A DNA stretch of 33,949 bases, from the NCBI GenBank assembly GCA_024276305.1, contig JAJRXK010000063.1, positions 1-33,949 of the forward strand, in the 5' to 3' direction. Origin of the DNA: Candidatus Krumholzibacteriota bacterium (lineage in GTDB: Bacteria > Krumholzibacteriota > Krumholzibacteriia > JAJRXK01). Both the position numbers and the translations under genes were made by a program. Within the stretch, counting starts at the first letter, position 1. Each line of letters opens with the position of its first letter. Below are positions 6,689 to 25,464 of this stretch, piece by piece. Below the pieces are notes generated by a model. It searched no databases, was not told the DNA's origin, and was given only the letters and a program-made list of their open reading frames with translations.

Positions 6689-8119
6689 TCAAGGTTCGAA
6701 GTTGGGATCGACCGCTTCGGGCCGGCGCATGGGCCTTCGGTCCACTGCGGCCACGGTGAAGAAGGTCAGCAGGCTCACGATCCAGGTGAAATAGATCGGA
6801 TGGGGAAGAATACGCCAGGTCGGGGGAGCGAGCTGCCAGGCGACCAGACCAACCATGGTCGTGCCGAGAGTCCAGGTGGCCGAGCTCCGGCGACACATCG
6901 CGGGCCAGAAGAGAGTCATCAGGACCACCAGAGTATAGGCCGTCGACAGGGTGAGACCGATGAGCAACATCTTCAGGATACCCGTGACGCGAGTGGCCAG
7001 GACGAAGGTCAAGAGGCTCAAGCCCGCGATGGTGATGCGCCCCACCGTTCTTTCGCGTTCTTCGTCGAGGTCTGGAGCGATGAATCGTTTGATGATGTCT
7101 CCGCAAACCAGAGTCGCGCTGCCCATGAGCAGAGCCGACGCCGTGCTCACGTCGGCGGCCCAGAGTCCAGCCAGGATCAGTCCGGCGGCCAGAGGGGGGA
7201 GGCCCAAGACCACTCGAGGCAGGGCTTCGGTGGGCACGATATCCGGGTATTGGACCGCCGCCGCCATTCCCAGAATGGCCGAGAGAAAGCCCACCGGCAG
7301 GATCAGCAGTCCACCCCACAGGTAGGCGCGAGATGCGGCCTTGGCGTCCCGAGAGGCAAAGCCGATCTGAATGACGGACTGGGTCGAATGGACCGTGGTG
7401 ATCATGACCAGGAACCAGGCCGCGATGAGTCCCGGCCCGACGGCGAAGGGCTCGAAGCCGGGATGGTCCGCGGGAAGCCGAGCGGCGAGCTCGGCCCAAC
7501 CTCCCACCTGGGAGACGGCCATCGCAGCTCCCAGAGTGATGCCGACGTAGATCACGGTGACGTTGATCACGTTGGTGAGGCCCGCCGCCCAGAATCCACC
7601 GACCAATGCGATCGAGACGAAGACCACTGCGGTGACCAGCATCCCCGTCATCGGAGTGAAGACCTCCGGAAGAAGCGACGAGAGGATTGCTCCTCCGGCC
7701 ACATATTGAAGGGAGGTGATCACGATCTGGATCACCAATTGTCCGATGACCCCAATGATTCGGCCGGAGATGGAATAGTGCCGTTCGAAGAGCTCGGGCA
7801 AGGTGGCGACTTCGAGGTCGCGATAGCGCCGGGCGGCGAAGAGCCCCATGGCGAAGGCTCCGAAGGCCCACGCTGCGTTGTACCATCCGGCGGAGATGCC
7901 CACGACATAGGCACGTTCCGCCACCCCGATGGTCGAGGCGCCTCCCACTGCCAACCCGGCCAGGAGCGCAGCGGCCACACCGGCGGGGAGGTTGCGACCG
8001 GCGAGGAGATAGCCGACCAATCCCGAGGAAGACCGCTGTCCCAATCGCCGAGCCCAGGCGGTGGCCGCGAAGAGCCCCACGAGGTAGAGCGAGACGATCA
8101 GAAGCGGGATCGGGTGCAT
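6689..8119 (-). CDS. Sodium:solute symporter (SSS family)
   Basis: This is a 476-residue inner-membrane protein with about 13 predicted hydrophobic helices, the usual size of the SSS/PutP family. Family-like stretches are GYLLAGRNLPAGVAA in the second helix region, LLAGLAVGGAS, and ADVSTASALLMGSATL in the conserved later helix. It imports a solute with Na+. The specificity cannot be read; organic acids, amino acids or nucleobase-related compounds would fit its neighbours. The start chosen is the ATG at 8119, which has GAGAGG just upstream and lies 10 bases after the acyl-CoA synthetase stop; a longer in-frame extension would run back into that gene. Sitting between the CoA ligase and ygfK in one operon, it probably brings in the compound that the operon degrades. 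Confidence 0.87.
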   Translation of the reverse strand: MHPIPLLIVSLYLVGLFAATAWARRLGQRSSSGLVGYLLAGRNLPAGVAAALLAGLAVGGASTIGVAERAYVVGISAGWYNAAWAFGAFAMGLFAARRYRDLEVATLPELFERHYSISGRIIGVIGQLVIQIVITSLQYVAGGAILSSLLPEVFTPMTGMLVTAVVFVSIALVGGFWAAGLTNVINVTVIYVGITLGAAMAVSQVGGWAELAARLPADHPGFEPFAVGPGLIAAWFLVMITTVHSTQSVIQIGFASRDAKAASRAYLWGGLLILPVGFLSAILGMAAAVQYPDIVPTEALPRVVLGLPPLAAGLILAGLWAADVSTASALLMGSATLVCGDIIKRFIAPDLDEERERTVGRITIAGLSLLTFVLATRVTGILKMLLIGLTLSTAYTLVVLMTLFWPAMCRRSSATWTLGTTMVGLVAWQLAPPTWRILPHPIYFTWIVSLLTFFTVAAVDRRPMRRPEAVDPNFEP

Positions 8120-8129
8120 GAGCCTCTCG

Positions 8130-10202
8130 CTATCGCACGCGGATCCGGACGTCGACCGCGGTGGCTCCGTCCGCGGTGGCAAAGACGGGATTCAGATCCA
8201 TCTCGGCGATGGAGGGATGATCCGCCACGAGTCGAGAGACCCGAAGGAGCAAGGACTCGAGGGCATCGAGATCGACGCTCGCTTCGCCTCGGCTTCCACT
8301 GAGAAGGGAGAAGCCCTGGATCTCGCGCATCATCTCTTGGGCCTCAGGTTTCGACAGAGGAGCCACCGCGAAGGAGACATCCTTCATGATCTCGACGAAG
8401 ATCCCCCCCAGACCGAACATCACGAGTTTTCCGAGTCCCGGCGCATCGAGGGCTCCCAGAATGAGTTCCTTGGCCGCGGGAAGCTGTCGCTGCAGGAAGT
8501 ATTCTGCGTCGACCCGGGCGAACTTCTTCTGAAGATCGCCAAAGGCCGCGGCGAGTTCGTGCTCGTCGGCGATTCCCAGAATCACGCCTCCTTCATCGGA
8601 CTTGTGCACGACATCCGCAGAATCGACTTTCAACACGCAGGGAAAGCCGACCTCCGCCGCTCCCGCCACGAGGTCTTCCATCTCGCGAATCCGGGCCCGT
8701 TTGGGCACGGAGATTCCGTAGAGCTCCAGGAGGGCGAAGGCATCGATCTGGCTGAGATAGCCATCACGACCCGAGTAGCCAGCGAGGAGCTTCGCGGCCT
8801 CGGCCCGGTTGACTTCGAGTTCCGGAGGAGCCTCGGTCTTTCGGGCCCGCAGAGTTGCGTAGCGATGCATCGCGGCGAGAGCTCGGACGCCATCTTCCGG
8901 GAACTCGTAGACCGGGACTCCCGCGGCGCGAATGCGGTCGAGGAGTCCACCCCATTTGGCAATGGTTTCGATCACCACCACCACGGGCTTTGCCGACGAA
9001 GCGGCAGCCTCCTCGATTCTCTCCGCGATGGCGTCGAGATCCACGAATGGAGCAGTGACGAAGAAGACCATGACCATGTCGGTCTCTTCTTCATGGAGGA
9101 GGGTGTCCATGGCTGCGAAGTAGTGGTCGGCTCCCGCGGTGGCGACGACATCCACGGGATTGCCGGTGCTGGCTTCGGCGTAGAGCTCGGACTTCAGTCG
9201 CTCGCGTCCTTGGTCGGACCAGGTCGCGAGCTCCAGGCCCGAGGCGATGGCGGTGTCCACGGCCTGGATGCCGGGTCCTCCGGTATTGGTGACGAGACCG
9301 ATACGATTCCCCGGAGGGGGACTCTGGGTCGAAAAGGCGATCGCGGCCTTGACCATTTCGTCGGAGTCGGTGAATTCCAGAATGCCCGCCTGTTTGTACA
9401 TGGCTTGGGTCATCGCATTCTGATCGATCAGTGATCCGGTGTGCGATGACACCGCCACCGAACCTTCGGCGCTACGGCCACACTTCATGGCCAGGATCGG
9501 CTTGTGAGGGGTGATTTTGGACGCGACCTCCAAGAAGACCGCGGGATTCTTGAAGGACTCGGTCTGCATCATGATCACACGAGTGCCCTCGTCCTGACCG
9601 TAGTACTCCAAGATCTCGGGCATCGTGAGGTCGCACTCGTTTCCGTAGGAGCAGTAGAGGCGGTGACCGAGACCCACCTTGTGAAGATGGAGCTTCAGGA
9701 GTTCTCCCATTCCTCCGCCCTGAGCGATGATCGAGATGTTGCCGGGCTTCATCGGAACGAAGGTGAAGTTGGCGTAGACCGAAACCTCGGGATCGGAGTT
9801 CTGGATGCCTTGACAGTTGGGTCCGTAGATCCGCATGCCATGGCGGTGCGCGATCTCGACCATCTTGCGCTCCCGGGCGAGCCCTTCTTCTCCCACTTCC
9901 TTGAAGCCGGCGCTGTGAACGATGGCGAACTTCACCCCCTTCTGACCACACTCCTCGATGATGTCGGGGATGAACTTGGCGGCCACCGAGATATTCACCA
10001 GATCGACGACGTCAGGGACCTCGAGAATGGACTTGTAGGCCTTGAAGGAACGAACGTGTCCCCCTTTGGGGTTGATCGGGAAGATCGGTCCTTTGTAGCC
10101 ATAGTCGACGAGATTCTTCAGAACGATGTGTCCGATCGAGTAGGGATTCGACGAAGCGCCAATGACGCCGACTCCGCGGGGACGAAAGAGTCCATCAAGC
10201 AT
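8130..10202 (-). CDS. ADP-forming acyl-CoA synthetase (acetate-CoA ligase type)
   Basis: The 690-residue protein has the fused alpha-beta layout of NDP-forming acyl-CoA synthetases. An N-terminal CoA-binding Rossmann domain (GVGVIGASSNPYSIG) is followed by two succinyl-CoA-ligase-like domains with the phosphohistidine loop SSHTGSL (H254), then a C-terminal ATP-grasp domain from about 480, with VVHKSDEGGV and a final EMDLNPV block. The enzyme interconverts acyl-CoA + ADP + Pi with acid + CoA + ATP. In anaerobes it conserves energy from acetyl-CoA or aryl-CoA, or activates an acid cheaply. The start overlaps the upstream ATPase gene by 8 bases and the stop lies 10 bases before the symporter start. 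Because no AMP-forming benzoate-CoA ligase is in the window, it could supply benzoyl-CoA or recover ATP from the acetyl-CoA made by the divergent benzoyl-CoA cluster; both are inferences. Confidence 0.9.
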   Translation of the reverse strand: MLDGLFRPRGVGVIGASSNPYSIGHIVLKNLVDYGYKGPIFPINPKGGHVRSFKAYKSILEVPDVVDLVNISVAAKFIPDIIEECGQKGVKFAIVHSAGFKEVGEEGLARERKMVEIAHRHGMRIYGPNCQGIQNSDPEVSVYANFTFVPMKPGNISIIAQGGGMGELLKLHLHKVGLGHRLYCSYGNECDLTMPEILEYYGQDEGTRVIMMQTESFKNPAVFLEVASKITPHKPILAMKCGRSAEGSVAVSSHTGSLIDQNAMTQAMYKQAGILEFTDSDEMVKAAIAFSTQSPPPGNRIGLVTNTGGPGIQAVDTAIASGLELATWSDQGRERLKSELYAEASTGNPVDVVATAGADHYFAAMDTLLHEEETDMVMVFFVTAPFVDLDAIAERIEEAAASSAKPVVVVIETIAKWGGLLDRIRAAGVPVYEFPEDGVRALAAMHRYATLRARKTEAPPELEVNRAEAAKLLAGYSGRDGYLSQIDAFALLELYGISVPKRARIREMEDLVAGAAEVGFPCVLKVDSADVVHKSDEGGVILGIADEHELAAAFGDLQKKFARVDAEYFLQRQLPAAKELILGALDAPGLGKLVMFGLGGIFVEIMKDVSFAVAPLSKPEAQEMMREIQGFSLLSGSRGEASVDLDALESLLLRVSRLVADHPSIAEMDLNPVFATADGATAVDVRIRVR

Positions 10203-11025
10203 TTTGATCCTCCGTGTGCCGGTGCGCGCGTCGCGCGAGGATGGCGGCGCCCAGTGCGCCCGTGAACTGCGGGTGGTCAGGGACGGTCACCGGTCTCCCG
10301 AGTCGCCGAGAAAGAAGATCCGCGATGGTCGGGTTGTGCGCCGCGACCCCACCGGTCAGAACCACTTCTCCCAGAAAGGTGTCCATCTCGACGATTCGAG
10401 TGACCACCGATTCGAAGGCGCCGCGTACGATCTGTTCCACGGCAACCCCCTGACGAAGGTGCGCCAGGATCTCGGTCTTGGAGAAGACGGTGCAGAACGA
10501 TCCGAGCTGGACCGGAGTGTCGGTGCTTGCCGCGAGGTCATCGAGATCGTCGATGCTGAGGCCCAAGCGGAGGGCGATCTCCTCGACGAAGGCTCCAGTT
10601 CCCGCCGCACACTTGCGATTCATCTTGAAGTCGATCCGCTGTCCCTGTTCATCGATGTGGATGATCTTGTTGTCTTGCCCACCGATGTCGACAATGGTGA
10701 TGGCTCTCGGCACCAGGTGATGGCACCCCACCCCGTGACAGTGAATTTCGGTGTGGCGGTGATTCGAGAAGGCGACGTTTTCGCGGCCGTATCCGGTGGA
10801 TATCGTATAGGCCACCGCATCCTTGGTCCGGCCGCATTCCGTCAGCGCTTCCTTCAGGCACAGCTCGGCCGTAGCGCCATAGTCCACGCCAGAGTGCCGC
10901 ACCGCTCGAGCCGAACACTCCCCGTTCTCATCGACCAACACCACTTTGGTGGCCGATGCTCCGATGTCTACGCCACAGTAGAGCGGACGACCCGCCGGTG
11001 ATGAGAACTGTCGGAGGCTGGCCAT
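10195..11025 (-). CDS. BadF/BcrA/HgdC-type ATPase (activator of the HgdB-like protein)
   Basis: A 276-residue single-domain ASKHA-fold ATPase. Phosphate-binding loop 1 is CGVDIGASATKVV, phosphate loop 2 is VDIGGQDNK, and the adenosine motif is VVLTGGVAAHN. C139 (NRKCAAGTGAFVE) and C178 (GSFCTVFSKTE) are the two cysteines that, in this family, hold one [4Fe-4S] cluster between two subunits. ATP hydrolysis lowers the cluster's potential so that an electron can be pushed into the partner protein. It lacks the long insertion seen in the BcrA-type subunit of this window, so it is of the HgdC/archerase type. The ATG at 11025 overlaps the stop of the HgdB-like gene as TGATG; a TTG one codon earlier is less likely. 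The pairing with one HgdB-like gene is recalled from YjiM/YjiL and double-cubane protein systems. Confidence 0.9.
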   Translation of the reverse strand: MASLRQFSSPAGRPLYCGVDIGASATKVVLVDENGECSARAVRHSGVDYGATAELCLKEALTECGRTKDAVAYTISTGYGRENVAFSNHRHTEIHCHGVGCHHLVPRAITIVDIGGQDNKIIHIDEQGQRIDFKMNRKCAAGTGAFVEEIALRLGLSIDDLDDLAASTDTPVQLGSFCTVFSKTEILAHLRQGVAVEQIVRGAFESVVTRIVEMDTFLGEVVLTGGVAAHNPTIADLLSRRLGRPVTVPDHPQFTGALGAAILARRAHRHTEDQNA

Positions 11026-12269
11026 CAACCCGCCTCGTGAAGTTGCTCGACGAGGGCCTCGAACTGCGTTCGGGTCTGCTCTTCGGAGTACATCCTCAAG
11101 TCGTTCAGGTCACCACTGATGACGACATGGGGAATCTTGAGCTTGGCCGTGACGCGTTTGGAGAGGCCGTAGCGGTTGTTCGAGTTGTTGGGGCAGGTCT
11201 TGGCGTCGTGGAAGACGAAGCCATCGATATGATAGTCGCGAGCCATGCGGGCCAGGTACTGCTCCTTGAAGTCTTCATCCCGAGCGATGAAGATCTCGGC
11301 GTAGGCCCGCGCCATGCCCTCGAAGGGATCGTCTTCGGCAAGGGCTTCGAAGATCCAGCTATTGCAATAGGTCGAGGCCACTACACAGGATCGATGGGCC
11401 GAGAAGGTCTGCGCGTGGTCTCGAATCTTGCCCCATACCGGCATCCCCTCCCAGTAGAATCGGTGGGACTCCTGCGGAACCGCGGCCACGCCCTGCGCGA
11501 CGCGTTCTTCGAGTTCGGTGATGAGCAGCGCATAGTATTCCTCGGCCCGAGGATCGCCGCGCAGGACCACGGCCGGTCCCATGTGAATGGTGCCGTCGAA
11601 GAAGGTGAGCGGGGAGGGCCGGTGCTGAGCGAGCTCCAACACGCGCTTCCACAGCTGGGTGCAGCGGTAGGACGACTGGACGACCTCTCGCAGGCGGTCG
11701 ATGTCGAAGGTGCGGCCGGAGACCTCTTCGAGCGTGGGAATGAGACCTCGATACTGTTGGACCAGAGCATGGATGTGATCGCGGGTGATGTCACCGATGC
11801 CTCGGGGAGTCTCGATGCCCAGGAGGGGAATGTTCCATTCGCGCTCGTAGAATGCGAACCACTCGTGGACGTCACGACACTGATTGGTGTTGTAGACCAG
11901 CACATCGGCGCGAGGAACCCCTTCGAGCCCGAAGGCTGGAGTCAGCGGGGTGCTGCGTCGCAGATAGGATCCGATGTCGCTGGTGAGGTAGGAGCAGATG
12001 TCCGGCGAGTAGCCGATGGCATTGGCGGCGGGGATCAAGTCGGTGGCGGTTCGGGTGGCTCCGAGGAGCGCGCCGTGGTTCTCGGGAAAGTAGACCTGGA
12101 ATCCGAAGGACCGCAGAAGTTCTGCCGGTCCCACACTGGTGCACCATGCAATCTTTGTGGAATCCGAGTCCGCCGCTTCCTTCAGTTCTCCGAAGTATTC
12201 GGCCATGAGTTTCTTCATGGCGCCGGTGGCGCGGATTTTTTGGATGGGGGGGGCGGGGCGATCGTTCAT
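11025..12269 (-). CDS. 2-hydroxyacyl-CoA dehydratase/HgdB-like iron-sulfur protein
   Basis: A 414-residue protein of the HgdB/FldC/BcrB family. It has the opening GPAELLRSFGF block, DICSYLTSDIG, NTNQCRDV and the late KTCPNNSNNRYG block. Seven cysteines (43, 92, 131, 203, 295, 302, 359) are available for a [4Fe-4S] or double-cubane cluster. Proteins of this family accept a low-potential electron from an ATPase partner and reduce a CoA thioester or, in double-cubane proteins, a small molecule. True dehydratases and benzoyl-CoA reductase need two different such subunits; here only one is present, followed by its ATPase with a 1-base overlap. That recalls YjiM/YjiL and DCCP/DCCP-R. It is the first gene of the minus-strand operon, with AGGAG six bases before the ATG. 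Its substrate is unknown; a CoA ester made by the third gene of the operon is one possibility. Confidence 0.88.
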   Translation of the reverse strand: MNDRPAPPIQKIRATGAMKKLMAEYFGELKEAADSDSTKIAWCTSVGPAELLRSFGFQVYFPENHGALLGATRTATDLIPAANAIGYSPDICSYLTSDIGSYLRRSTPLTPAFGLEGVPRADVLVYNTNQCRDVHEWFAFYEREWNIPLLGIETPRGIGDITRDHIHALVQQYRGLIPTLEEVSGRTFDIDRLREVVQSSYRCTQLWKRVLELAQHRPSPLTFFDGTIHMGPAVVLRGDPRAEEYYALLITELEERVAQGVAAVPQESHRFYWEGMPVWGKIRDHAQTFSAHRSCVVASTYCNSWIFEALAEDDPFEGMARAYAEIFIARDEDFKEQYLARMARDYHIDGFVFHDAKTCPNNSNNRYGLSKRVTAKLKIPHVVISGDLNDLRMYSEEQTRTQFEALVEQLHEAG

Positions 12270-12501
12270 CGGTTGCTCCTTGCCTCGTTTGATCTGGGAG
12301 GATCATGCTGCTGCATCGGACCCGCCACCGTCAAGGTTCACGACGACCCGATGGGATTGCCGTTGCGAAACTGTGAGCTGTGGTCGAAGGGTCGACGAAG
12401 AACTCGTATGATGACCCCGAATTCTGGCCGCAGCCCTGCACCTCGCCAAGACAGCACGCGATTCGGACGAGACGAAAACCTTCGCGCGGGAGAGCTACGT
12501 G
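12270..12501. promoter_or_regulatory. Divergent intergenic region between the two catabolic operons
   Basis: These 232 bases hold no gene and must carry the promoters of both the minus-strand HgdB-like operon and the plus-strand fusion-enzyme gene. On the plus strand TATGAT (12407-12412) is the best -10 candidate, with only a weak TCGAAG about 17 bases upstream. On the minus strand TTGACG (12334-12329) resembles a -35, but no good -10 is spaced correctly. Ribosome-binding sites are AGGAG for the minus gene and GGGAGAG for the plus gene. I see no strong operator palindrome. Shared control of both operons is possible but is not shown by the sequence. Confidence 0.45.
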
Positions 12502-14469
12502 ATGAAGATTGGGGTCATTGGGTCGGGGGCGATCGGTCCCGATCTCGCGTATGGTTTTCTGTCGGCGGTGGCCGGCGACGGAGAGAGCTCGGTGGTGTTG
12601 GTCGACATCAAGAAGGAGGCTCTGGACGCGGGAGTGGAGAGGATTCGCGGCTACGTCCAGAAGGGCGTCTCTCGGGGGAAACTCTCCCCCAAGTTGGCGG
12701 CCAAGATCGAGGCGGCCTTGGTTCCGACCCAATCGCTCGACTCGCTGGTGGGTTGCGATTATGTGATGGAGGCCGCGACCGAGGAGCTCTCGATCAAGCG
12801 GACCATCCTACGTGAGGTCGAAGCCGTGGTGGGGCCCGATTGCCTGATCGGATTCTCCACTTCGGGAATTCCCCGGGCGGAGATCGCGGCCGAGGCGACC
12901 CATCCGGGGCGCTGTTTCGTCAATCACCCCTTCTTTCCGGCCTGGCGGTCGCTTCCCATCGAAGTCGTCCTCTCCGAGGACCCGCAGGCCAGCCAGCGCA
13001 TGCTCGCCACCCTTCGTCGCTTGGGCAAGATTCCGGTGGTCACCGACGATGTCCCCTGCTTCGCGGCTGACGACGTGTTCTGCAACTACTGCGCGGAGGC
13101 GACTCGAATCGTGGTGGAAGGCCGGGCCAACGTCGCTCAGGTCGATGCCATCGTGAATGATGCGATCGGAGGCGGTGGTCCGTTTCTGGTCATGGATCTG
13201 ACCCGCGGCAATTTGCTCAACGTCAAGTGTCTCAACTTGATGAAAGAGGCTCCGACCGGCAGCGATTGGTTCACCCCTCCGGAGAAGTTCCGCGAGCAGG
13301 CGAACACTCCCTGGCACGATCGCAAGAACCCGCAGGACGGTTCCTACGACGACGCGCTCAAGAAAGAAGTGTTGGACCGCATTCTCGCAGTTCTGCTCGC
13401 GCGAACCTACTTCGTCGTGGATCGTGGGATTTGTCCGCCCCGTGAGATGAATTGGTTGACCCGAGCCGCGTTGGGATTCTCCAAGGGATTGCTCGACCTC
13501 GCCGAAGACCTCGGCGCCGATCGCGTTCACGAGATCTGCAGTCGCTACGCGGAGACGCACCCCGGTTTCGAGGTGCCCGAAAGCATCGCGAAGAAGCAAT
13601 TGGCGGACTTTTGGCGAAATGTCTCGGTGGATCGCGAGGAGGGTATCGCGGTGGTGAAGGTGGAGCGTCCGGAGGTCATGAACGCTCTCAATCACCAGAC
13701 CATGGAGGAATTGGCGGAGGTCTTCGCCGAGCTCGAAAAGGATCCGAAAGTTCAGGGGATCGTGCTCTCTTCGGCCGGACTCTCGTTGGCGGGAGCCGAC
13801 ATTCACGAACTGGCGGCCCTGAAGACCCCCGAAGAGGCGGTCGGAAAGTGCCGGCACGGCCACGGCATCCTCGATCGGATTGCCGCCATGTCCAAGCCGG
13901 TGGTGGCGGCGGTCGACGGGCCGGTCTTGGGGGGGGGCTCGGAGTTGTCCATGGCCTGCCATGGTCGCGTGGTCGGGAAGCGTCTCATGCTCGGGCAGCC
14001 GGAGGTGAACCTCGGGATCATCCCGGGCTATGGAGGGACCCAACGTTTGCCGCGGCTCATCGGACTCGAGGCGGGGCTTCGCCTGCTGCGCACCGGTGAC
14101 ACGGTGGGGGCGAAGGAGGCGTGCGAGCTGGGTTGGGCCTCGGGAGATCCTGTGGAGGATCCCCTCCAGGGGGCCAAGGACCTCATTGCCCGTCACCTCT
14201 CCGGGACGGTGGAACTCGGTCCTGTCGATTCGTCACCGATGGACTTGCCCGGGGAGCTTCCCACCGTCGACATCGGTCACCACTCGCTGGCCATCGATGC
14301 CATCCTCGTGGATGTCCTTCGAGAGGGGCTCCAGCTTCCCTTGGCCGAGGGCCTGAAGATCGAGGCGGATGGTTTCGGTCGCTGCAAGGGTTGTGTGGAC
14401 TATGACATCGGAATGACGAACTTCATCCAGAATGGTCCCCGGGTTCCGGCGACCTTCTTGCACGAATAG
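12502..14469 (+). CDS. 3-hydroxyacyl-CoA dehydrogenase / enoyl-CoA hydratase fusion
   Basis: The 655-residue protein has dehydrogenase first and crotonase second, the reverse of FadB. Residues 1-370 contain the NAD loop GVIGSGAIG, the HAD dyad H142 and E154 (NHPFFPAWRSLPIE), and a position near 190 where the family asparagine is replaced by aspartate (CFAADD). Residues 375-655 are a crotonase with the GADIHEL oxyanion segment and both hydratase glutamates, E481 (GGGSELSMA) and E501 (GQPEVNLG). It should hydrate an enoyl-CoA and oxidise the 3-hydroxy product with NAD+. The simplest role is beta-oxidation of 3-hydroxypimelyl-CoA, the Oah product. Because it sits where Thauera has dch and had, it may instead act on cyclic intermediates. 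The ATG at 12502 is preferred over the GTG directly before it; GGGAGAG lies upstream. The thiolase gene follows after 12 bases. Confidence 0.9.
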   Translation: MKIGVIGSGAIGPDLAYGFLSAVAGDGESSVVLVDIKKEALDAGVERIRGYVQKGVSRGKLSPKLAAKIEAALVPTQSLDSLVGCDYVMEAATEELSIKRTILREVEAVVGPDCLIGFSTSGIPRAEIAAEATHPGRCFVNHPFFPAWRSLPIEVVLSEDPQASQRMLATLRRLGKIPVVTDDVPCFAADDVFCNYCAEATRIVVEGRANVAQVDAIVNDAIGGGGPFLVMDLTRGNLLNVKCLNLMKEAPTGSDWFTPPEKFREQANTPWHDRKNPQDGSYDDALKKEVLDRILAVLLARTYFVVDRGICPPREMNWLTRAALGFSKGLLDLAEDLGADRVHEICSRYAETHPGFEVPESIAKKQLADFWRNVSVDREEGIAVVKVERPEVMNALNHQTMEELAEVFAELEKDPKVQGIVLSSAGLSLAGADIHELAALKTPEEAVGKCRHGHGILDRIAAMSKPVVAAVDGPVLGGGSELSMACHGRVVGKRLMLGQPEVNLGIIPGYGGTQRLPRLIGLEAGLRLLRTGDTVGAKEACELGWASGDPVEDPLQGAKDLIARHLSGTVELGPVDSSPMDLPGELPTVDIGHHSLAIDAILVDVLREGLQLPLAEGLKIEADGFGRCKGCVDYDIGMTNFIQNGPRVPATFLHE

Positions 14470-14481
14470 GCGGAGGTGGCC

Positions 14482-15762
14482 ATGTCCGACGATCGGTGCA
14501 TCGTGATTCTCGACGGAGCGCGACGACTTCCCCGCGCAGATATCCTGATCAACAATCGTCAGCCGGGATTGTTCTCTCGTTTCTCGACGACTCAACTCGG
14601 TGGAATGGCGATTCGAGCCACCCTCGAGAACACGGAGGTCGAGGAGAAGGAGATCGGGCACGTGGTGATGGGAATGGCTTCCCATGCTCATCGCGATGCC
14701 ATCTACGGGGCCCAGGGAATGCGCTGGCGGGGTGGGCTGGGAGACGATGTGCCGGCTCTCACCGTGGCTCGAATCTGTGGGAGCGGTGCGGAGTCGGTGG
14801 CAGTGGGATCAGAGATCATCCTGGCCGGAGTGAGGCACGATCGCCGGCGCCCCTTCATGGTGGTCGGCGGCGCCGAGAGCATGCAATACCCCTTCTGCCT
14901 CTACAACTACCGTGGTCGCAAAGTCGGAGCTGCGGTCCAGAAATACGGCCCCATCGATGCCAAGGCCTTGCCTCCGGGAACGCATTTGCAGGATTCGCTG
15001 CTCATGAATCTCTACGATCCCGGGGCTCAGCTGGCGATGGCGAATACCGGTGAGGAACTCGGCCGCCGATACGAGATCAGCCGAGCGGAAGCGGATGCCT
15101 TCGGTCATCGGTCGCACATGCTGGCCAAGGCCTCTCGCGACCAGGGGCACTTCGATGAGGAAACCGTTGCGGTGAAGGTCGTGGTGGATCCGGCTCGACC
15201 GGCGGTCGAAGTGCGTCACGACACGCACATCATGGACAATATCAGTCTGGCCAAGATGGCGCGTCTTCCGGCGGCATTCGAGGCCGGCGGAATCATCACC
15301 GCAGGGAACGCGAGCGCGGTGGTGGACGGCGCGGCCGCGATGGTGATTGCCAAACTCTCCGATGCCACCGAGCGCGGAGCCGAGCCCTTGGCCAGAATCG
15401 CGGGAATGGGAGTTGCGGCTTGCGACCCCCGTATCATGGGGTGGGGGCCGGTCCCCGCAGTTCGACTTGCTCTCGAGAATGCGGGGATCGCCGGCGCCGA
15501 GGTCGATCAAGTGGAGCTCAACGAAGCTTTCGCACCCCAGGCTTTGGCCTGCATTCGCGACTTTGCCGAGATGGGAATCGATCCGGAGAAGGTGAACCCC
15601 ATGGGGGGAGCGATTGCCTTGGGGCATCCCCTGGGGGCGACGGGTGCGATCCTCACTTTGAGCTGCGCATATGCGTTGCGGAGAAACAAGAAACGTTATG
15701 GCGTGGTGACCATGTGCATCGGAGGCGGCCAGGGCATCGCCCTGGTCCTCGAGTCCATGTAG
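14482..15762 (+). CDS. Thiolase (acetyl-CoA C-acyltransferase)
   Basis: A 426-residue thiolase with the acyl-accepting C99 (VARICGSGAES), the NEAFA motif, the catalytic histidine near 382 (ALGHPLGATGA) and the second cysteine near 412 (TMCIGGGQG). All catalytic residues are present, so it should be active. In this cluster it most plausibly cleaves 3-oxopimelyl-CoA to glutaryl-CoA and acetyl-CoA after the fusion enzyme has made the 3-oxo compound. The length is slightly above the usual 390-400 residues because of a long segment between the first and second motifs. The ATG at 14482 is chosen because GGAGG (14472-14476) lies five bases before it; the GTG at 14476 would overlap this Shine-Dalgarno. 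It is cotranscribed with the fusion gene, and a possible attenuator directly follows its stop. Confidence 0.92.
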   Translation: MSDDRCIVILDGARRLPRADILINNRQPGLFSRFSTTQLGGMAIRATLENTEVEEKEIGHVVMGMASHAHRDAIYGAQGMRWRGGLGDDVPALTVARICGSGAESVAVGSEIILAGVRHDRRRPFMVVGGAESMQYPFCLYNYRGRKVGAAVQKYGPIDAKALPPGTHLQDSLLMNLYDPGAQLAMANTGEELGRRYEISRAEADAFGHRSHMLAKASRDQGHFDEETVAVKVVVDPARPAVEVRHDTHIMDNISLAKMARLPAAFEAGGIITAGNASAVVDGAAAMVIAKLSDATERGAEPLARIAGMGVAACDPRIMGWGPVPAVRLALENAGIAGAEVDQVELNEAFAPQALACIRDFAEMGIDPEKVNPMGGAIALGHPLGATGAILTLSCAYALRRNKKRYGVVTMCIGGGQGIALVLESM

Positions 15763-15823: not shown

Positions 15824-16957
15824 ATGTCTTTGGAATGGATTCCCCGCGACGACAGTCTCAAGAATCACCAACTCTTTGGAGACGCCCACTTCGGATCCGA
15901 AGCTCCATGCACGGTCTATGAGAAGCGCCCCCTCACCGATCCGGAGGGCAAGGTGATCGAGGGCCTCTACACCGCGTGGGTCACCTTGAACAATCCCGAT
16001 CAGTTCAATTCCTACACGACGGAGATGGCCAAGGGAGTCACTGCGGGATTCCAGGCCGCATCGAGTGACCGTAGCGTTGTCGCAGTCGTGTTCACCGCGG
16101 TAGGCACGCGGTCCTTCTGCACTGGGGGCAATACGAAGGAGTACGCAGAGTACTACGCTCGGAGGAACAACGAGTACGGCGAGTACATGGACATCTTCAA
16201 TGGGATGGTCGATGGGATTCTCAATTGCAAGAAACCAACGATCTGTCGCGTGAATGGTATGCGCGTGGCCGGAGGCCAAGAGATCGGGATGGCTTGCGAT
16301 TTCACTCTGGCTTCGGACCTCGCCATTTTCGGTCAGGCCGGTCCCAAGCACGGTTCGGCTCCCGATGGCGGATCCACGGACTTCCTACCGTGGATGCTCA
16401 GCCTCGAGGATGCGATGTGGAACTGTGTGTCCTGTGAGATGTGGAGTGCTCACAAGATGAAGGTCAAAGGTCTGATCACCGCCGTACGCAAAGCTCTGAA
16501 AATCGACGGCGAGTTCGTACCCAATCCCCTGGTGATCACCGATCGCTACGTGGACGACGGAGAAGTCGTGTACGGGGAGTTCAAGACCGGGAACGAGGCG
16601 AAGGAAGCGAAGGCGCGGCTGAAGAGTGGCGAGATCGATCTGTCGCTTCTCGATGAAGAGGTGGATCGAGTCGTTTGGCGGCTCACCAACCTCTTTCCCG
16701 GATGTCTGATGAAGTCCATCGACGGCATTCGCGCCAAGAAGAAGTTCTTCTGGGACATGATGAAGTTGCCCAATCGCCACTGGTTGGCGGCGAATATGGG
16801 CAATGAAGCGTTTCTCGGCTTCACGGCCTTCAATACCCGTAAGCTCACCGGGACCGACACCATCGATTTCGTCCGCTATCGGCAGCTCATTGCAGAGGGG
16901 CGGGCGATGACTGACGAGGTCTTCGCCGAAGTCCTGGGTCGGCCCCAGTCGGACTGA
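15824..16957 (+). CDS. oah: 6-oxocyclohex-1-ene-1-carbonyl-CoA hydrolase (ring opening)
   Basis: The 377-residue protein is the characteristic Oah/BamA ring-opening hydrolase, a long member of the crotonase family. Recognisable blocks are the start LEWIPRDDSLKNHxLFG, WVTLNNPDQFNSYTTEM, SFCTGGNTKEYAEYYA, GMRVAGGQEIGMACDF and GPKHGSAPDGGSTDFLP. It hydrates and hydrolytically opens 6-oxocyclohex-1-ene-1-carbonyl-CoA to 3-hydroxypimelyl-CoA, the committed step out of the ring in both class I and class II benzoyl-CoA pathways, which makes it the best marker gene for anaerobic aromatic degradation. The ATG at 15824 has CAGGAG seven bases upstream. The gene lies between the thiolase and bcrC; the oah-bcrC-bcrB-bcrA-bcrD order equals that described for Thauera. 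A 183-base gap with its own promoter signals separates it from bcrC. Confidence 0.95.
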   Translation: MSLEWIPRDDSLKNHQLFGDAHFGSEAPCTVYEKRPLTDPEGKVIEGLYTAWVTLNNPDQFNSYTTEMAKGVTAGFQAASSDRSVVAVVFTAVGTRSFCTGGNTKEYAEYYARRNNEYGEYMDIFNGMVDGILNCKKPTICRVNGMRVAGGQEIGMACDFTLASDLAIFGQAGPKHGSAPDGGSTDFLPWMLSLEDAMWNCVSCEMWSAHKMKVKGLITAVRKALKIDGEFVPNPLVITDRYVDDGEVVYGEFKTGNEAKEAKARLKSGEIDLSLLDEEVDRVVWRLTNLFPGCLMKSIDGIRAKKKFFWDMMKLPNRHWLAANMGNEAFLGFTAFNTRKLTGTDTIDFVRYRQLIAEGRAMTDEVFAEVLGRPQSD

Positions 16958-17140: not shown

Positions 17141-18307
17141 GTGGGGCGCGAAAGCATCATCCGGGCAGCGCGGGAGATCTACGACGATCTGGACTTCCAG
17201 AGGGTCCGCGACTGGTTGTCCCAGAAGCCGGGTACGAAGGCCGTGGGCTATCTTCCCGTCTATGCTCCACGGGAGCTGATCCACGCCTGCGGATTGCTTC
17301 CGGTGGGGATTCATGGGGGCGGCGACCGCGTCGAGATCATCAAGGGTGACGCCTTCTACCAATCCTACATCTGTCATTTGCCGCGATCCGTCGTCGAGCT
17401 CGGCCAGTCCGGCCGTTTGGACATGTTGTCGGGGATGCTCTTCCCCTCGACCTGCGACGTGATTCGTAATCTGTCGGGCATGTGGAAGATGCTCTATCCC
17501 GATCAGTACGTCCGCTACATCGACGTTCCCCAGATCGCAACCCCCGAGATCGCGATTCCCTTCTGGGAGGGTGAATTGCGGCACCTGTTGAACGATCTGG
17601 CCAAGTTGTCCGGTCATCATCCCTCGGAAGACGAACTCAGGGCCTCCCTCGGTCTCTACAACGAAGTGCGTGCCGCACTGAGGGAGCTCTACGAGCTGCG
17701 CCGGACTCGCCCCTGGGATGTACCCACCGAAGAACTCTATCTGTTGATGCGGGCTGGCGAATCGATTCCCCCTGAAGACTTCCTGGCCATGATCCAATCG
17801 TATTTTCGAGCGATCGATGACGAGCCGAATCGCCCCCGAGACAATAGCCGGGTGATCGTCGTGGGATCCTTCTGCGAGCAGCCTCCCCTGGGATTGATCA
17901 AGACCATCGAACGAGCAGGGTGCTACGTGGTCGACGATGATTTCCTCATCGGAAATCGCTTTCTGACCGAGGACGTAGAACTGAGCGGGGATCCCCTGAG
18001 CTGCCTGGCCGAAAGCTTTGTTCGCGACGCGGTGGCGACTTCGGTGATCTACGAAGCAGATCCCCACGGAAAGCGAAGCGAAATCAAGGACAAAGTCGAT
18101 GCGGCGGGTGCCGACGGAGTGATCTTCGCGGCGGCAAGCTTTTGCGACCCCGCGCTTCTCGATCGTCCCATGCTTCGAACGGGGGCGGAGGCCCACGACA
18201 TTCCGTGCATTGCCTTCAAGTTCTCGGAGAACAGCGGCCAGTTCCAACAGTTTCGGGAACAGGCGGGAACCTTCTCCGATTCCATCAAGCTCTGGGGAGG
18301 TGCGTGA
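17141..18307 (+). CDS. bcrC: Benzoyl-CoA reductase subunit C (gamma)
   Basis: The 388-residue product matches BcrC/BadD (386 in Thauera) along its full length: YLPVYAPRELIHACG, PVGIHGGGDRVE, KGDAFYQSYICHLPRS, FPSTCDVIRNLSGMWKM and the late FCEQPPLGLIKTIE. With BcrB it forms the substrate-binding half of class I benzoyl-CoA reductase, where cysteine-held [4Fe-4S] clusters donate single electrons to the aromatic ring. The start is GTG at 17141 with AGGAGG (17131-17136) four bases upstream; an ATG at 17125 is out of frame. A long leader with promoter and palindrome precedes it, so this is the first gene of the bcr transcript. The stop overlaps the bcrB start by one base (TGATG). Oxygen-sensitive cytoplasmic enzyme. 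Confidence 0.95.
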   Translation: MGRESIIRAAREIYDDLDFQRVRDWLSQKPGTKAVGYLPVYAPRELIHACGLLPVGIHGGGDRVEIIKGDAFYQSYICHLPRSVVELGQSGRLDMLSGMLFPSTCDVIRNLSGMWKMLYPDQYVRYIDVPQIATPEIAIPFWEGELRHLLNDLAKLSGHHPSEDELRASLGLYNEVRAALRELYELRRTRPWDVPTEELYLLMRAGESIPPEDFLAMIQSYFRAIDDEPNRPRDNSRVIVVGSFCEQPPLGLIKTIERAGCYVVDDDFLIGNRFLTEDVELSGDPLSCLAESFVRDAVATSVIYEADPHGKRSEIKDKVDAAGADGVIFAAASFCDPALLDRPMLRTGAEAHDIPCIAFKFSENSGQFQQFREQAGTFSDSIKLWGGA

Positions 18308-19587
18308 TGGCGGAGACTTCCGCTGCCAAGGATCGCTCGATGATCCTACAGAAGCAGATGATCGCGAATCACTACCGTCAGCTCGAGAATGCTCCCGAGA
18401 CCGGCGATCCCGTGGTCTACACCTTCGTGCCCGGGAACATGAACGAGTTGGTCCGGTCCTTCGGCGCCCTTCCGGTGCTCCCGGAAATCAATGCTCTCCA
18501 ATCGGGGATGCGGCAGAAGAGCGGAGACTACATTGCCGAGGCAGAGCGTGCCGGTCACTCCGAGGATGTCTGCACCTATGTGAAGTGCGACATCGGCATG
18601 ATCAAAGCCGGGAACATCAGTCCAACGGGCACGCGACTTCCCAAACCGGATCTGCTCCTACTGTCCTACACCGGTTGCTACACCTTCATGAAGTGGTTCG
18701 AGCTCCTTCGGGAAGAATACGACTGTCCCACGGTGTTCTTCCACGTCCCCTACCAGGGGGATGGAACGATCGAGGCGGAGCACCGCGATTACATGATGCG
18801 TCAATTGCGGGAGGAAGTGATTCCCGCCCTCGAGAAGGCGACGGGTCGACGATACGACGAAGATCGACTTCGGGAATACCTCACGCTCAGTGCTCAGGCC
18901 GAGGACGATTTGGTCGCGGTGCTGCAGTCCGCGAAGAACCGTCCCAGCCCTATCGACGCCTACTTCGGCGCGGTGTACTACGTCGGCCCGATTTTCTCTT
19001 CCTTCCGAGGCACTCCAGAGGGGGTGGAATACTATCGAGCACTCCGCGAAGAAGTCGAGGCGCGGGTCGCGGCCGGCCAAGGGCCCATGACTCCCGTCGG
19101 CCAGCTCGATGACGAGAAGTATCGGTTAGTGGTCGAAGGCCCTCCCAATTGGACCAGCTTTCGAGAGTTCTGGTCCATGTTTGCGAGCGAAGGCGCGAAC
19201 GTGGTGGCCTCGACCTATACCAAGGTCGGGGGGACCTATGACTTCGGATTTCGTCATGACCCAGAGGATCCTCTCGGGACTCTGGCCGACTACTGCGGTG
19301 GTTGCTACACGAACATCAATCTTCCCGGCCGGGTCGACATGCTGGTCGACTACATCCGAGAATACGAGGCCGACGGGTTTGTCATCAACTCGGTGAAGTC
19401 CTGCAATTCCTTTTCTGCAGGCCAGCTCATGATGCTGCGCGAAGTCGAGAAGCGCGCGGGGGTGCCGGGTGCGTTCATCGAGTCCGATCTCGTGGACCCC
19501 AGGTATTTCTCGGCCGCGAATATCAAGAATCGTCTGGAAAGTTACCTTCAGATGATCGATGCCCGGCGGATGGGGGCATCGGCATGA
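18307..19587 (+). CDS. bcrB: Benzoyl-CoA reductase subunit B (beta)
   Basis: With the ATG at 18307 the protein has 426 residues, close to BcrB/BadE (about 438). Family blocks are FVPGNMNELVRSFGALPVLPE, DVCTYVKCDIGMIKAGN, LSYTGCYTFMKWFE, EGPPNWTSFREFW and INSVKSCNSFSAGQ; the cysteines in these blocks are the expected iron-sulfur ligands. A longer reading frame begins at 18142 but would lie inside bcrC, and the 1-base TGATG overlap with bcrC supports the chosen start. It pairs with BcrC as the reductase module that carries two electrons stepwise to benzoyl-CoA, forming cyclohexa-1,5-diene-1-carbonyl-CoA. The stop overlaps the bcrA start by four bases (ATGA), implying coupled translation and balanced subunit amounts. 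Confidence 0.95.
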   Translation: MAETSAAKDRSMILQKQMIANHYRQLENAPETGDPVVYTFVPGNMNELVRSFGALPVLPEINALQSGMRQKSGDYIAEAERAGHSEDVCTYVKCDIGMIKAGNISPTGTRLPKPDLLLLSYTGCYTFMKWFELLREEYDCPTVFFHVPYQGDGTIEAEHRDYMMRQLREEVIPALEKATGRRYDEDRLREYLTLSAQAEDDLVAVLQSAKNRPSPIDAYFGAVYYVGPIFSSFRGTPEGVEYYRALREEVEARVAAGQGPMTPVGQLDDEKYRLVVEGPPNWTSFREFWSMFASEGANVVASTYTKVGGTYDFGFRHDPEDPLGTLADYCGGCYTNINLPGRVDMLVDYIREYEADGFVINSVKSCNSFSAGQLMMLREVEKRAGVPGAFIESDLVDPRYFSAANIKNRLESYLQMIDARRMGASA

Positions 19588-20858
19588 GGTGCGTCATCGG
19601 GATCGATCTGGGATCGACGACGACCAAGGCGGTGATCCTCGACGAAGACGGAGCGATCATCGGGCGGGGGATCACGAACTCGCGTTCGAACTATGAGCTC
19701 GCTTCGGCGGTTGCCCGGAGCGAGGCCTTCGCCGATGCTCGCTTCCGGCTGGTGGCTCGTGAAGTCCGGGGAGAGCTGGACCAGGCCCTTCTGGGTCGGC
19801 TGGAGAGAGCGTTCCGACTGGAACAGACGCTCGGACAACTCGGCCGATTGCACGAACTCATCGAAGAGGAGATCGAGCGCCGGCAGTACGGAGAACTCGG
19901 TCCTACGGTCCGCGAGGCGGTGGGTTCCATCGTGAAGGCGATCGAACTCGAAGAGCGAGCGCATTTCGGTTCGGAGAATCCTCCGCTTCGTTCCAGCTTC
20001 TTCCGAGATGCCGTGGGTTCTGCCTACAATCGATATGCCGAAGAAATCTCGGACCCCAAGGGCGTGACCTTTGATCTGCTCCTGGGTCTCTACGACAAGT
20101 GCATCATTCGAGTCGAGAACGAGCCCATGGATCTTGGCTTCCAAGAGCTCATCGACAACGCGCTGGACCGCATCGAGAATCCAACGCTGATGGTCGACGC
20201 GGTGCGTGCGGCGGCGAGTACCGAGCTCGACGAAGCATGCATGGTCGGTACGGGCTATGGGAGAGCCACTCTTCCTTTCCCCAAGGAGGCGATTCGCTCG
20301 GAGATCCTTTGCCATGGATTGGGAGCGCATGCCATGTTTCCTGGGACTCGCACCGTTCTCGACATCGGGGGGCAGGATACGAAGGCCATCCAAGTGGATG
20401 ACTCGGGGATCGTGACCAGCTTTCAGATGAACGATCGCTGCGCCGCGGGATGCGGAAGGTACCTGGGGTATATCGCAGACGAAATGAATATGGGATTGCA
20501 CGAACTCGGTCCGATGGCCGAGAAGAGCACCCGATGCGTGAAGATCAACTCCACCTGCACGGTATTCGCAGGAGCAGAGCTGCGCGAGCGGCTGAGCCTC
20601 GGAGAGAGACGGGAGGACATCCTCGCTGGCCTCCATCGGGCAATCATTCTCCGGGCTATGAGTCTGCTCGCGCGGTCCGGAGGCATCGACGACGAGTTCA
20701 CGTTCACGGGAGGCGTAGCCAACAATGAGGCCGCGGTTCACGCACTCCGAGACTTGGTCGACGAGAACTACGGGCAGAAAACCTTGAACATCTCTCCCGA
20801 CAGCATCTACACGGGTGCTCTCGGAGGAGCCCTCTTTGCTCACAGGTTGGCAAGCTGA
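19584..20858 (+). CDS. bcrA: Benzoyl-CoA reductase subunit A (ATPase, alpha)
   Basis: The 424-residue ATPase matches BcrA/BadF. It has phosphate loop 1 GIDLGSTTTKAVI, phosphate loop 2 LDIGGQDTKAI and the adenosine motif FTGGVANNEA. Between the two loops lies the long insertion typical of the alpha subunit of Thauera-type reductase (roughly residues 45-215). C286 (NDRCAAGCGRYLG) and C325 (NSTCTVFAGAE) should hold the [4Fe-4S] cluster shared with BcrD. ATP hydrolysis drives electrons from reduced ferredoxin to the BcrBC module. The ATG at 19584 is favoured by the 4-base overlap with bcrB; the longer in-frame extension lies inside bcrB. The 1-base overlap with bcrD completes the fourfold coupled array. 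No ferredoxin gene is seen nearby. Confidence 0.95.
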   Translation: MRCVIGIDLGSTTTKAVILDEDGAIIGRGITNSRSNYELASAVARSEAFADARFRLVAREVRGELDQALLGRLERAFRLEQTLGQLGRLHELIEEEIERRQYGELGPTVREAVGSIVKAIELEERAHFGSENPPLRSSFFRDAVGSAYNRYAEEISDPKGVTFDLLLGLYDKCIIRVENEPMDLGFQELIDNALDRIENPTLMVDAVRAAASTELDEACMVGTGYGRATLPFPKEAIRSEILCHGLGAHAMFPGTRTVLDIGGQDTKAIQVDDSGIVTSFQMNDRCAAGCGRYLGYIADEMNMGLHELGPMAEKSTRCVKINSTCTVFAGAELRERLSLGERREDILAGLHRAIILRAMSLLARSGGIDDEFTFTGGVANNEAAVHALRDLVDENYGQKTLNISPDSIYTGALGGALFAHRLAS

Positions 20859-21712
20859 TGTGCATCACGGCAGGAATCGATGTCGGCAGTGGCGCTGTGA
20901 AGTGCGTCGTCATGAAATGTCCCGAGAACGGCGCCCCCGAATTGATGGCCGCCCACTCGAGTCGGATTCGGCGACGAGAGGTCGCGAATGTGGTGGATGA
21001 GGCCTGGACCGCGGCAGTGTCGGCCGCAGGAGTGGATGAAGTCGCCTATGTGGCAACCACAGGAGAGGGAGAGGATATCCCCTTCGCCACCGGACACTTC
21101 TACGGAATGACCACTCATGCCCGTGGCGCCTTGCACCTCGATCCGAGTGCTCGGGCAGTTCTCGATGTGGGGGCGCTGCACTCCCGAGCGGTGGCCATGG
21201 ATGAGCACGGAAAAGTTCTGGGCTACAAGATGACGAGTCAGTGTGCTTCGGGTTCTGGGCAATTCCTCGAGAACATCGCACGCTATCTCGGCGTCTCCCA
21301 GTCCGAGGTTGGATCGCTCTCCTTGGCCGCCACGGACCCCGAGAATGTGTCTTCGATCTGCGCGGTCCTCGCAGAAACAGACGTGATCAACATGGTGTCC
21401 CGAGGAATCAACACTCCGGACATCTTGCGCGGGATCCACGAGAGCATGGCCGGGCGTTTCGCTCGGCTACTGCGTTCGCTGGACGTACGCGGAACCGTAT
21501 TCGTCAGCGGAGGCCTCGCTTCGGATGTTGGATTGATGGCCGCACTCGAGGATTCCCTGGCCAAGTCGGCCAGAGGTGGAGCGGTTCCCACCGTGGCGAC
21601 CCACGATCAGGCGATTCACGCGGGGGCCATTGGCGCCGCAATCTGGGGAGCATTTCGTTACCGCAAGTTGGGGAAGGGAGAAGCGGCATGGAAGTCGACG
21701 ATGGAGGTCTGA
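20858..21712 (+). CDS. bcrD: Benzoyl-CoA reductase subunit D (ATPase, delta)
   Basis: This 284-residue protein is very near the 282 residues of Thauera BcrD/BadG. It carries GIDVGSGAVKCVV in loop 1, VLDVGALHSRAV in loop 2 (the family GGQD is GALH, a divergence from the canonical motif) and FVSGGLASDVG in the adenosine motif. Cluster cysteines are C129 (TSQCASGSGQFLE) and C168 (SSICAVLAETD). With BcrA it forms the heterodimeric electron activator. The start overlaps the bcrA stop as TGATG. The 3' end overlaps the next gene by 25 bases in another frame. Loop 2 is unlike that of BcrA and of the single-gene activator at 10195, so the two sites of the heterodimer may not be equivalent. Confidence 0.93.
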   Translation: MCITAGIDVGSGAVKCVVMKCPENGAPELMAAHSSRIRRREVANVVDEAWTAAVSAAGVDEVAYVATTGEGEDIPFATGHFYGMTTHARGALHLDPSARAVLDVGALHSRAVAMDEHGKVLGYKMTSQCASGSGQFLENIARYLGVSQSEVGSLSLAATDPENVSSICAVLAETDVINMVSRGINTPDILRGIHESMAGRFARLLRSLDVRGTVFVSGGLASDVGLMAALEDSLAKSARGGAVPTVATHDQAIHAGAIGAAIWGAFRYRKLGKGEAAWKSTMEV

Positions 21713-25147: not shown

Positions 25148-25464
25148 TCGGAATACCTCCACCTGGACGTTCTGGTCACTCTACTGGTCTCGGCAGGGTC
25201 AAGCTAGGAGTTATGGACCGATCGGTCAAGTTAGGAGAATGTGAACGATGTTGTCGATCGTCCTCGGGAGGTAGGTGCCTCGATCGCCCAAGGCGACCGG
25301 AGATCGGTTGTGGGCCGCCACAGGAAGGATCAAGGAAGCAAGGGATCGAAGTGGGAAGATGGACACCGGAGCAGGCACCCGAATCGGTGAGAAGGTCAGC
25401 GGCATGGTATGCTCTCATGGAGAAGATCGATAGCAATCAAGCCTTTGTCGTACTGGAGAGCACG
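25148..25464. other. Intergenic region between tetR and the propeller gene
   Basis: These 317 bases hold no convincing gene. They contain the tetR promoter and operator (25198-25237) and, on the plus strand, a possible -10 TATGCT (25408-25413) for the downstream secreted protein. No good -35 is seen for the latter. Two 13-base near-direct repeats, GTCAAG-Y-TAGGAG, lie 27 bases apart around the palindrome (25198-25210 and 25225-25237). Between about 25240 and 25400 I see nothing recognisable. Confidence 0.6.
25199..25229 (-). promoter_or_regulatory. tetR promoter with overlapping operator
   Basis: On the minus strand TTGACC and TAGCTT are 17 bases apart. The perfect 12-bp palindrome GACCGATCGGTC (25216-25227) overlaps the -35 and the spacer, so a bound dimer would block RNA polymerase. 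The core is of the kind bound by TetR-family proteins. Autoregulation of the tetR-SDR unit is the natural reading; it would need a binding test. Confidence 0.6.

Follow-up and report, generated by a model that had tools for sequence, protein, structure and literature searches.

What can a single catalytic protein of the 2-hydroxyacyl-CoA dehydratase/benzoyl-CoA reductase (BCR) family do with a single ATPase and no second subunit? Known dehydratases are alpha-beta heterodimers, each with a homologous cluster-bearing beta subunit, and they reuse the activating electron over many turnovers (PMC8473912, PMC11574389). The question is raised by contig JAJRXK010000063.1 of a Candidatus Krumholzibacteriota bacterium (assembly GCA_024276305.1), whose positions 1 to 33,949 are the window analyzed here and in which two adjoining genes encode such a pair:

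HGD (HGD1), 11025..12269, minus strand: 414 aa, ATG start; PF06050 at 226 bits (cut-off 28), HadB model NF052455 at 223 bits (below its cut-off of 750); placed further by tree and fold
ACT (ACT1), 10195..11028, minus strand: acyl-CoA dehydratase activase, a BadF/BadG ATPase of 277 aa; TIGR00241 at 214 bits (cut-off 125), PF01869

The initial annotation took this seven-cysteine HgdB-family subunit and its one activator for a YjiM/YjiL- or double-cubane-like pair. The composition of the pair was confirmed, and the proposed class was rejected. We found that HGD is an alpha-type catalytic subunit of the family and that in several genomes it has no beta partner, against the family's two-subunit rule. 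An alpha-type catalytic subunit without a beta partner is what is new here, within a known enzyme family.

HGD is an alpha-type catalytic subunit

Against curated profiles, HGD scored highest with HadB (223 bits), followed by BcrB (TIGR02260, 151 of the required 487 bits), BzdO (TIGR03191, 92 of 449) and the double-cubane model (NF040772, 56 of 350), all below the equivalog cut-offs. Sources of relatives were the window's own group, with 80 genomes, and a GTDB scan, with ten loci that include metagenome-assembled genomes (MAGs) of Acidobacteriota, Myxococcota, Latescibacterota and Chloroflexota; G and L numbers below denote genomes and loci. In a maximum-likelihood tree of 88 sequences, including YjiM, double-cubane cluster proteins (DCCP), HadB and BcrB, the family split (100/97) into an alpha half with HadB, BcrB, MbdO and BzdO and a half with HadC, BcrC, MbdN, BzdN, DCCP and YjiM. 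HGD1 and a paralogue, HGD2, formed one clade (100/99) inside the alpha half, away from YjiM and DCCP. Forcing a clade with DCCP and YjiM cost 185 log-likelihood units and was rejected (p value of the approximately unbiased test, p-AU, 6.8e-6).

The predicted fold agrees with this placement. An AlphaFold2 model of HGD (mean predicted local distance difference test score, pLDDT, 92.7; predicted template modeling (TM) score, pTM, 0.91) had HadB as its best Foldseek match (TM 0.91/0.94, root mean square deviation 1.8 A). Query-normalized TM scores were 0.84-0.87 with MbdO and BzdO; scores with DCCP were 0.75-0.77 (TM 0.77/0.76 at about 4 A).

HGD has exactly seven cysteines (C43, C92, C131, C203, C295, C302 and C359), conserved in 19 of 19 aligned HGD1 sequences save C295, which is present in 18. 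The predicted cluster ligands and two of the extra cysteines are encoded as follows:

C92 codon, 11994..11996, minus strand: predicted [4Fe-4S] ligand, equivalent to BzdO C95
C131 codon, 11877..11879, minus strand: predicted [4Fe-4S] ligand, equivalent to BzdO C128
C359 codon, 11193..11195, minus strand: predicted [4Fe-4S] ligand, equivalent to BzdO C380
C302 codon, 11364..11366, minus strand: invariant extra cysteine aligned with BzdN C263, which is a double-cubane ligand
C43 codon, 12141..12143, minus strand: invariant extra cysteine one residue ahead of the BzdN C36 position (Ser in HadB)

C92, C131 and C359 align with HadB and with C95, C128 and C380 of BzdO, which are the ligands of its catalytic [4Fe-4S]-water cluster (PMC11971306, also the source of the BzdN double-cubane ligands). 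C92 is invariant in the 19 HGD1 sequences and in every other aligned cluster-bearing family member. BzdN holds its double cubane with six cysteines; HGD has cysteine at the three of these positions common to all cluster-bearing members and at that of C263, and the alignment shows none at the C36 and C293 positions. Between the two cluster types that the initial annotation had weighed, the residues predict a [4Fe-4S] site with three ligands and an incomplete set for [8Fe-9S]. DCCP and DCCP-R (6eno, 7yyl) and Escherichia coli YjiM/YjiL likewise combine one gene of the HGD family with one ATPase gene; unlike HGD, they fall outside the alpha half of the tree, and HGD lacks two of their six ligand positions. 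Tree, fold and ligand positions together rule out DCCP/YjiM membership.

At positions that vary between families and line the substrate pocket of BzdO, HGD shares S45, V46, N64, V134 and W305 with HadB and none of them with BcrB or MbdO. The N-terminal pocket positions were taken from pairwise HMMER alignments because the BzdO row was shifted in the multiple alignment around BzdO 44-46 and 65.

The closest solved relatives of ACT are MbdQ, HadI and HgdC. C140 (in CAAGTG) and C179 (in SFC) match both cluster cysteines of homodimeric activators, and their columns are conserved. ACT has the predicted features of the single-gene activators, with two cluster cysteines per subunit, that serve 2-hydroxyacyl-CoA dehydratases.

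A subunit without a beta partner

Whole-genome searches with PF06050 found no second such protein beside the HGD1 orthologue in G074 and G013 (each a single contig, 91% complete), G075 (one contig, 80%) and G079 (96%). HGD1 is also the only PF06050 protein in G081, a partial Dehalococcoidia (Chloroflexota) MAG of 1.3 Mb, so that no beta-type protein with which to build the alpha-beta heterodimer of the dehydratases was found in any of the five. With HGD1 as the sole PF06050 protein there, these searches rule out a beta partner encoded in another part of those genomes, apart from what the little missing sequence might hold. The initial annotation had seen its proposal endangered by a grouping with HgdB or FldC proteins whose partner lies elsewhere. 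HGD is indeed alpha-type, but its partner is not elsewhere in G074, G075, G079 or G013. In the window's own genome (97.9% complete) the four PF06050 proteins are HGD, BcrC, BcrB and HGD2, which is on another contig, and the four PF01869 ATPases are BcrA, BcrD, ACT and ACT2.

Compared with (R)-2-hydroxyisocaproyl-CoA dehydratase, HadBC with its activator HadI (PDB 3o3m, 4eht), HGD resembles HadB in fold, in the three cluster cysteines and in pocket residues, and ACT and HadI are single-gene activators of the same family. HGD differs in having no HadC-type beta subunit and in its four extra conserved cysteines. The class I BCRs BcrCBAD, MbdONPQ and BzdNOPQ have in common with HGD the family of the alpha-type [4Fe-4S] catalytic subunit. 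They differ by a double-cubane subunit of the BcrC, MbdN or BzdN type, which is absent from the HGD operon and from the four whole genomes, by their pocket residues, and by two ATPase genes, where dehydratases have one (PMC8473912, PMC11971306). The HGD operon has one ATPase gene, as dehydratases do, and G074 encodes exactly one PF06050 and one PF01869 protein.

A literature search for single-subunit dehydratases found none. Geobacter metallireducens has an activator, Gmet_0544, that lacks a catalytic subunit (PMC1924859), which is a different case. As a separate observation, each genome in the order of G080 contains between 2 and 14 genes of the HGD-D family, many of them adjacent alpha-beta pairs or DCCP-type singles.

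A module beside benzoyl-CoA metabolism

HGD and ACT stand at the head of a run of four minus-strand genes, and a set of benzoyl-CoA genes is divergent from them:

ACD, 8130..10202, minus strand: single-chain ADP-forming acyl-CoA ligase (CoA_binding, Succ_CoA_lig and ATP-grasp_5 domains), third gene of the module
SSS, 6689..8119, minus strand: sodium:solute symporter (PF00474 at 82 bits; TIGR00813 at 117 bits, below cut-off), fourth gene of the module
Fusion of 3-hydroxyacyl-CoA dehydrogenase and enoyl-CoA hydratase, 12499..14469, plus strand: PF02737 and PF00378; divergent neighbor kept beside HGD1 in several genomes
Thiolase (acetyl-CoA C-acyltransferase), 14476..15762, plus strand: TIGR01930 at 327 bits (cut-off 241); conserved neighbor
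Oah, 15824..16957, plus strand: 6-oxocyclohex-1-ene-1-carbonyl-CoA hydratase (ring cleavage); TIGR03200 at 581 bits (cut-off 464)
bcrC-bcrB-bcrA-bcrD, 17141..21712, plus strand: class I benzoyl-CoA reductase, a separate system; TIGR02263, TIGR02260 and TIGR02261 above cut-off, TIGR02259 at 567 of 578 bits

The open reading frames (ORFs) of HGD and ACT share 4 bp, the start of ACD lies 8 bp before the end of ACT, and the ORF of SSS opens at 8182 with a likely ATG at 8119. As the initial annotation had stated, the HGD-ACT pair is divergent to a true bcrCBAD cluster and distinct from it. Known clostridial 2-hydroxyacyl-CoA dehydratase systems use a CoA transferase, where the HGD operon has an ADP-forming ligase and a symporter. 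The order HGD-ACT-ACD-SSS is kept in 14 genomes (the window's own, G006, G013, G037, G038, G039, G040, G044, G053, G065, G074, G075, G079 and G083), with the ACD frame broken in G006. The earlier hint that the adjoining ligase points to a CoA-ester substrate is upheld. The closest solved relative of ACD is the 4-hydroxybutyrate-CoA ligase 8wzu (388 bits); relatives of ACD and SSS were considered as a guide to the substrate, and the closest solved ones are too distant for a decision.

The module keeps company with aromatic degradation. Oah is present in 12 of the 14 HGD1 genomes and in 2 of the 64 others (p 1.8e-10, uncorrected for the relatedness of the genomes). HGD1 adjoins bcr genes in the window and in L009, L055 and L061, and a bzdNOPQ-like cluster in L010; in G006 and G013 (L053, L073) the module adjoins genes resembling 4-hydroxybenzoyl-CoA reductase. 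Divergent from HGD1 in G079 (L052:11888-19557) are genes for an aldehyde:ferredoxin oxidoreductase (AFOR), a 181-aa protein, a CCG/4Fe-4S protein, an HdrA-like flavoprotein and an FlpD protein, which is the order expected of class II bamBCDEF with the AFOR as putative BamB. A comparable run in G044 (L160:2868-9691) is recognized by the sizes of its ORFs and an AFOR gene. AFOR genes occur in all five HGD1 genomes without class I bcr, including G013, G075 and G074, whose AFOR genes are at most candidates for bamB, and in none of three class I genomes tested. Because the module accompanies benzoyl-CoA metabolism whichever reductase is present, its position argues for a peripheral step. Because AFOR genes are found in the HGD1 genomes without bcr, in bam-like orders in G079 and G044, HGD1 is not needed as their BCR, and a role for it as substitute BCR is disfavored.

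In a Dehalococcoidia MAG (L012, 9004-13446) a GlcD-type FAD oxidase gene directly follows HGD1-ACT1 in place of the ligase and symporter. Genes with a metallo-beta-lactamase fold precede HGD1 in the Dehalococcoidia MAG loci L012:9004-13446 and L013:6923-9759. The bcr genes of Krumholzibacteriota have already been described (PMC10936416); the relevant passages of that paper do not mention the HGD-ACT-ACD-SSS module.

HGD2, the sister of HGD1, is the C-terminal part of a protein of about 780 aa with an N-terminal ApbA/PanE (2-oxoacid-reductase-type) domain, found in the window's own genome and about ten others:

PanE-HGD2 fusion, L015:10881-13226 (contig C114 of the same genome), minus strand

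In 11 copies of HGD2, C131 is always Gly, C92 is replaced by Asn, Ser or His, and C359 is kept once; its ATPase retains both cluster cysteines. The operon also encodes a fused 4-hydroxybenzoyl-CoA-reductase-like protein, a TetR/FadR regulator, a short-chain dehydrogenase/reductase, a BbsB-like thiolase, an OB-fold (ChsH2-type) protein, a dienoyl-CoA-hydratase-like crotonase and Had, which scores above its cut-off. It reads as a putative set for side-chain beta-oxidation and ring degradation of (hydroxy)aryl-propanoids. PanE was considered as a constant partner of HGD1, and this was not upheld: HGD1-only genomes have only remote PanE proteins.

Elsewhere in the window, a gene set resembling ygfK-ygeW-ygeY lies at 633-6618, with a YgfK-like N-terminal part with a 4Fe-4S domain (4660-6618), a YgeW-like knotted carbamoyltransferase (3516-4667), an M20/YgeY-like hydrolase (1981-3519) and a pyridoxal phosphate enzyme (633-2000); the three yge/ygf-like proteins fall below equivalog cut-offs. 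At 24781-27621 is encoded a YCF48/BNR-repeat protein of 946 aa that carries a type IX secretion sorting domain at its C terminus. Two records of the plasmid collection labelled as plasmids, NZ_OL790811 (4.1 Mb, Proteus mirabilis) and NZ_CP084075 (2.1 Mb, Fusobacterium vincentii), are chromosome-like by size.

Proposed function and alternatives

We favor, at even confidence, a reading of HGD/ACT as a partnerless alpha-type radical enzyme of the family, a HadB-like dehydratase that is probably homodimeric and works in a four-gene module of peripheral anaerobic aromatic metabolism. Alpha-type machinery with a single activator gene and no beta subunit makes a homodimer with a twin cluster the simplest inference. 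Acid import together with an ADP-forming ligase implies that the CoA ester is made within the cell. The HadB-like pocket, the PanE fusion of the sister HGD2 and the GlcD-type oxidase of L012 point to a 2-hydroxy acid, and the neighboring Oah, BCR and 4-hydroxybenzoyl-CoA-reductase-like genes point to an aromatic acid. The likeliest substrates belong to the aromatic (R)-2-hydroxy acids, for example (4-hydroxy)phenyllactate.

In known dehydratases an electron from the activator passes through the beta-type cluster to the alpha-type cluster, and a ketyl radical expels the 2-hydroxyl group (PMC8473912, PMC11574389). Under the proposed scheme, SSS would import the organic acid and ACD would form its CoA thioester. 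ACT, as a homodimer whose two subunits share a [4Fe-4S] cluster at their interface, would spend ATP to drive one electron from ferredoxin into HGD, where the [4Fe-4S]-water site (C92, C131 and C359, with E63, Y94 and Y301) would form the ketyl radical and expel the alpha-hydroxyl. The product would be a 2-enoyl-CoA, with the electron retained, and the cluster of the twin subunit may take the electron-storing role of the beta subunit in HadBC. Beta-oxidation of the enoyl-CoA would then bring the aryl part to benzoyl-CoA. The reaction proposed for HGD, from aryl-lactyl-CoA to cinnamoyl-CoA ahead of beta-oxidation to benzoyl-CoA, has a counterpart in the phenyllactyl-CoA dehydratase FldABC of Clostridium sporogenes; FldBC is two-subunit, unlike HGD. 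A route from phenylpyruvate through cinnamoyl-CoA to benzoyl-CoA with a phenyllactyl-CoA dehydratase has been proposed for the anaerobic benzene degrader BzS1 (PMC13416013).

Several points weigh against this dehydratase. A plain HadB model leaves the four extra cysteines, conserved in 18-19 of 19 HGD1 sequences and including C302 at a double-cubane position, unexplained; these cysteines may lie along the substrate cavity. The pocket is altered at G47, where HadB has Phe and BzdO Trp, and at N362, where HadB has Met; both residues are peculiar to HGD. The best tree puts the HGD1/HGD2 clade weakly beside BcrB/MbdO (84/74) rather than HadB, although forcing HadB as sister cost 5.9 log-likelihood units and was not rejected (p-AU 0.30). 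The beta cluster of HadBC is described as both conduit and store for the electron (PMC11574389, PMC8473912), so that in an alpha-only enzyme the electron has to take a different route. The Oah co-occurrence test leaves genome relatedness uncorrected, no Oah above the cut-off was found in G079 and G074, and the PanE link fails at the orthologue level in HGD1-only genomes, whose PanE proteins are remote (23-26% identity). We found no assayed protein of the HGD1/HGD2 clade, and the substrate rests on neighbors.

The tree position and the extra cysteines would suit an enzyme that reduces rather than dehydrates. HGD/ACT could be a minimal BCR-like enzyme that uses ATP to reduce an aroyl-CoA or a similar CoA ester, by ring reduction or reductive removal of a ring substituent, with C302 and the other extra cysteines carrying more redox equivalents; the strong tie to aromatic degradation and to 4-hydroxybenzoyl-CoA-reductase-like genes fits this as well. 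We consider it possible but unlikely. It has no double-cubane subunit to store a second electron and one ATPase gene instead of two, its pocket residues are those of HadB and unlike those of BcrB or MbdO, and the AFOR genes of HGD1 genomes without bcr, bam-like in G079 and G044, leave HGD1 unneeded as a BCR.

Alternatively, the aromatic link may be metabolic background to the dehydration of a small non-aromatic 2-hydroxy acid, for example lactate or 2-hydroxyglutarate. The lower benzoyl-CoA route also includes glutaconyl-CoA, and the HadB-like pocket, the two polar residues that follow the cluster cysteine C359 (N362 and N364) and the GlcD-type oxidase in L012 are in keeping with such a substrate. 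This is rather improbable in view of the co-occurrence with Oah (p 1.8e-10, relatedness uncorrected), the placing of the module beside three different dearomatizing systems, the paralogue HGD2 in an aromatic side-chain operon, and the greater room that G47 gives compared with the Phe of HadB.

Very unlikely is a heterodimer of HGD with the cluster-free HGD2 or a borrowed BcrC. HGD1 and HGD2 are sister paralogues (100/99) that co-occur in about ten genomes and are in tandem in L007, but in four genomes HGD1 is the one PF06050 protein, and HGD2, without cluster cysteines, could not store an electron as HadC does. A double-cubane reductase of small molecules like YjiM/YjiL or DCCP, suggested by the single HGD-family protein with a single ATPase and by seven conserved cysteines with C302 at a double-cubane ligand position, can be set aside almost entirely, given the rejected common clade (p-AU 6.8e-6), the 56 of 350 bits with NF040772, a fold closer to HadB than to DCCP and the absence of cysteine at the C36 and C293 positions.

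Returning to the partnerless dehydratase, we tentatively extend it to a distinct class of the family. This would be a homodimer of alpha subunits only, having two catalytic [4Fe-4S] sites but no beta cluster, in which the extra active-site cysteines might hold the electron and which would dehydrate an aromatic 2-hydroxyacyl-CoA as an oxidative entry to benzoyl-CoA. Its sister HGD2 would have become a CoA-ester-binding domain without a cluster, joined to a 2-oxoacid-reductase-type domain, with the iron-sulfur ATPase kept. If an alpha-type enzyme does work without a beta subunit, the electron relay through the beta cluster would be dispensable, and the pair would offer a simpler system for the study of ATP-driven ketyl chemistry. 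It would also represent a peripheral route into benzoyl-CoA in uncultured bacteria, alongside both classes of BCR.

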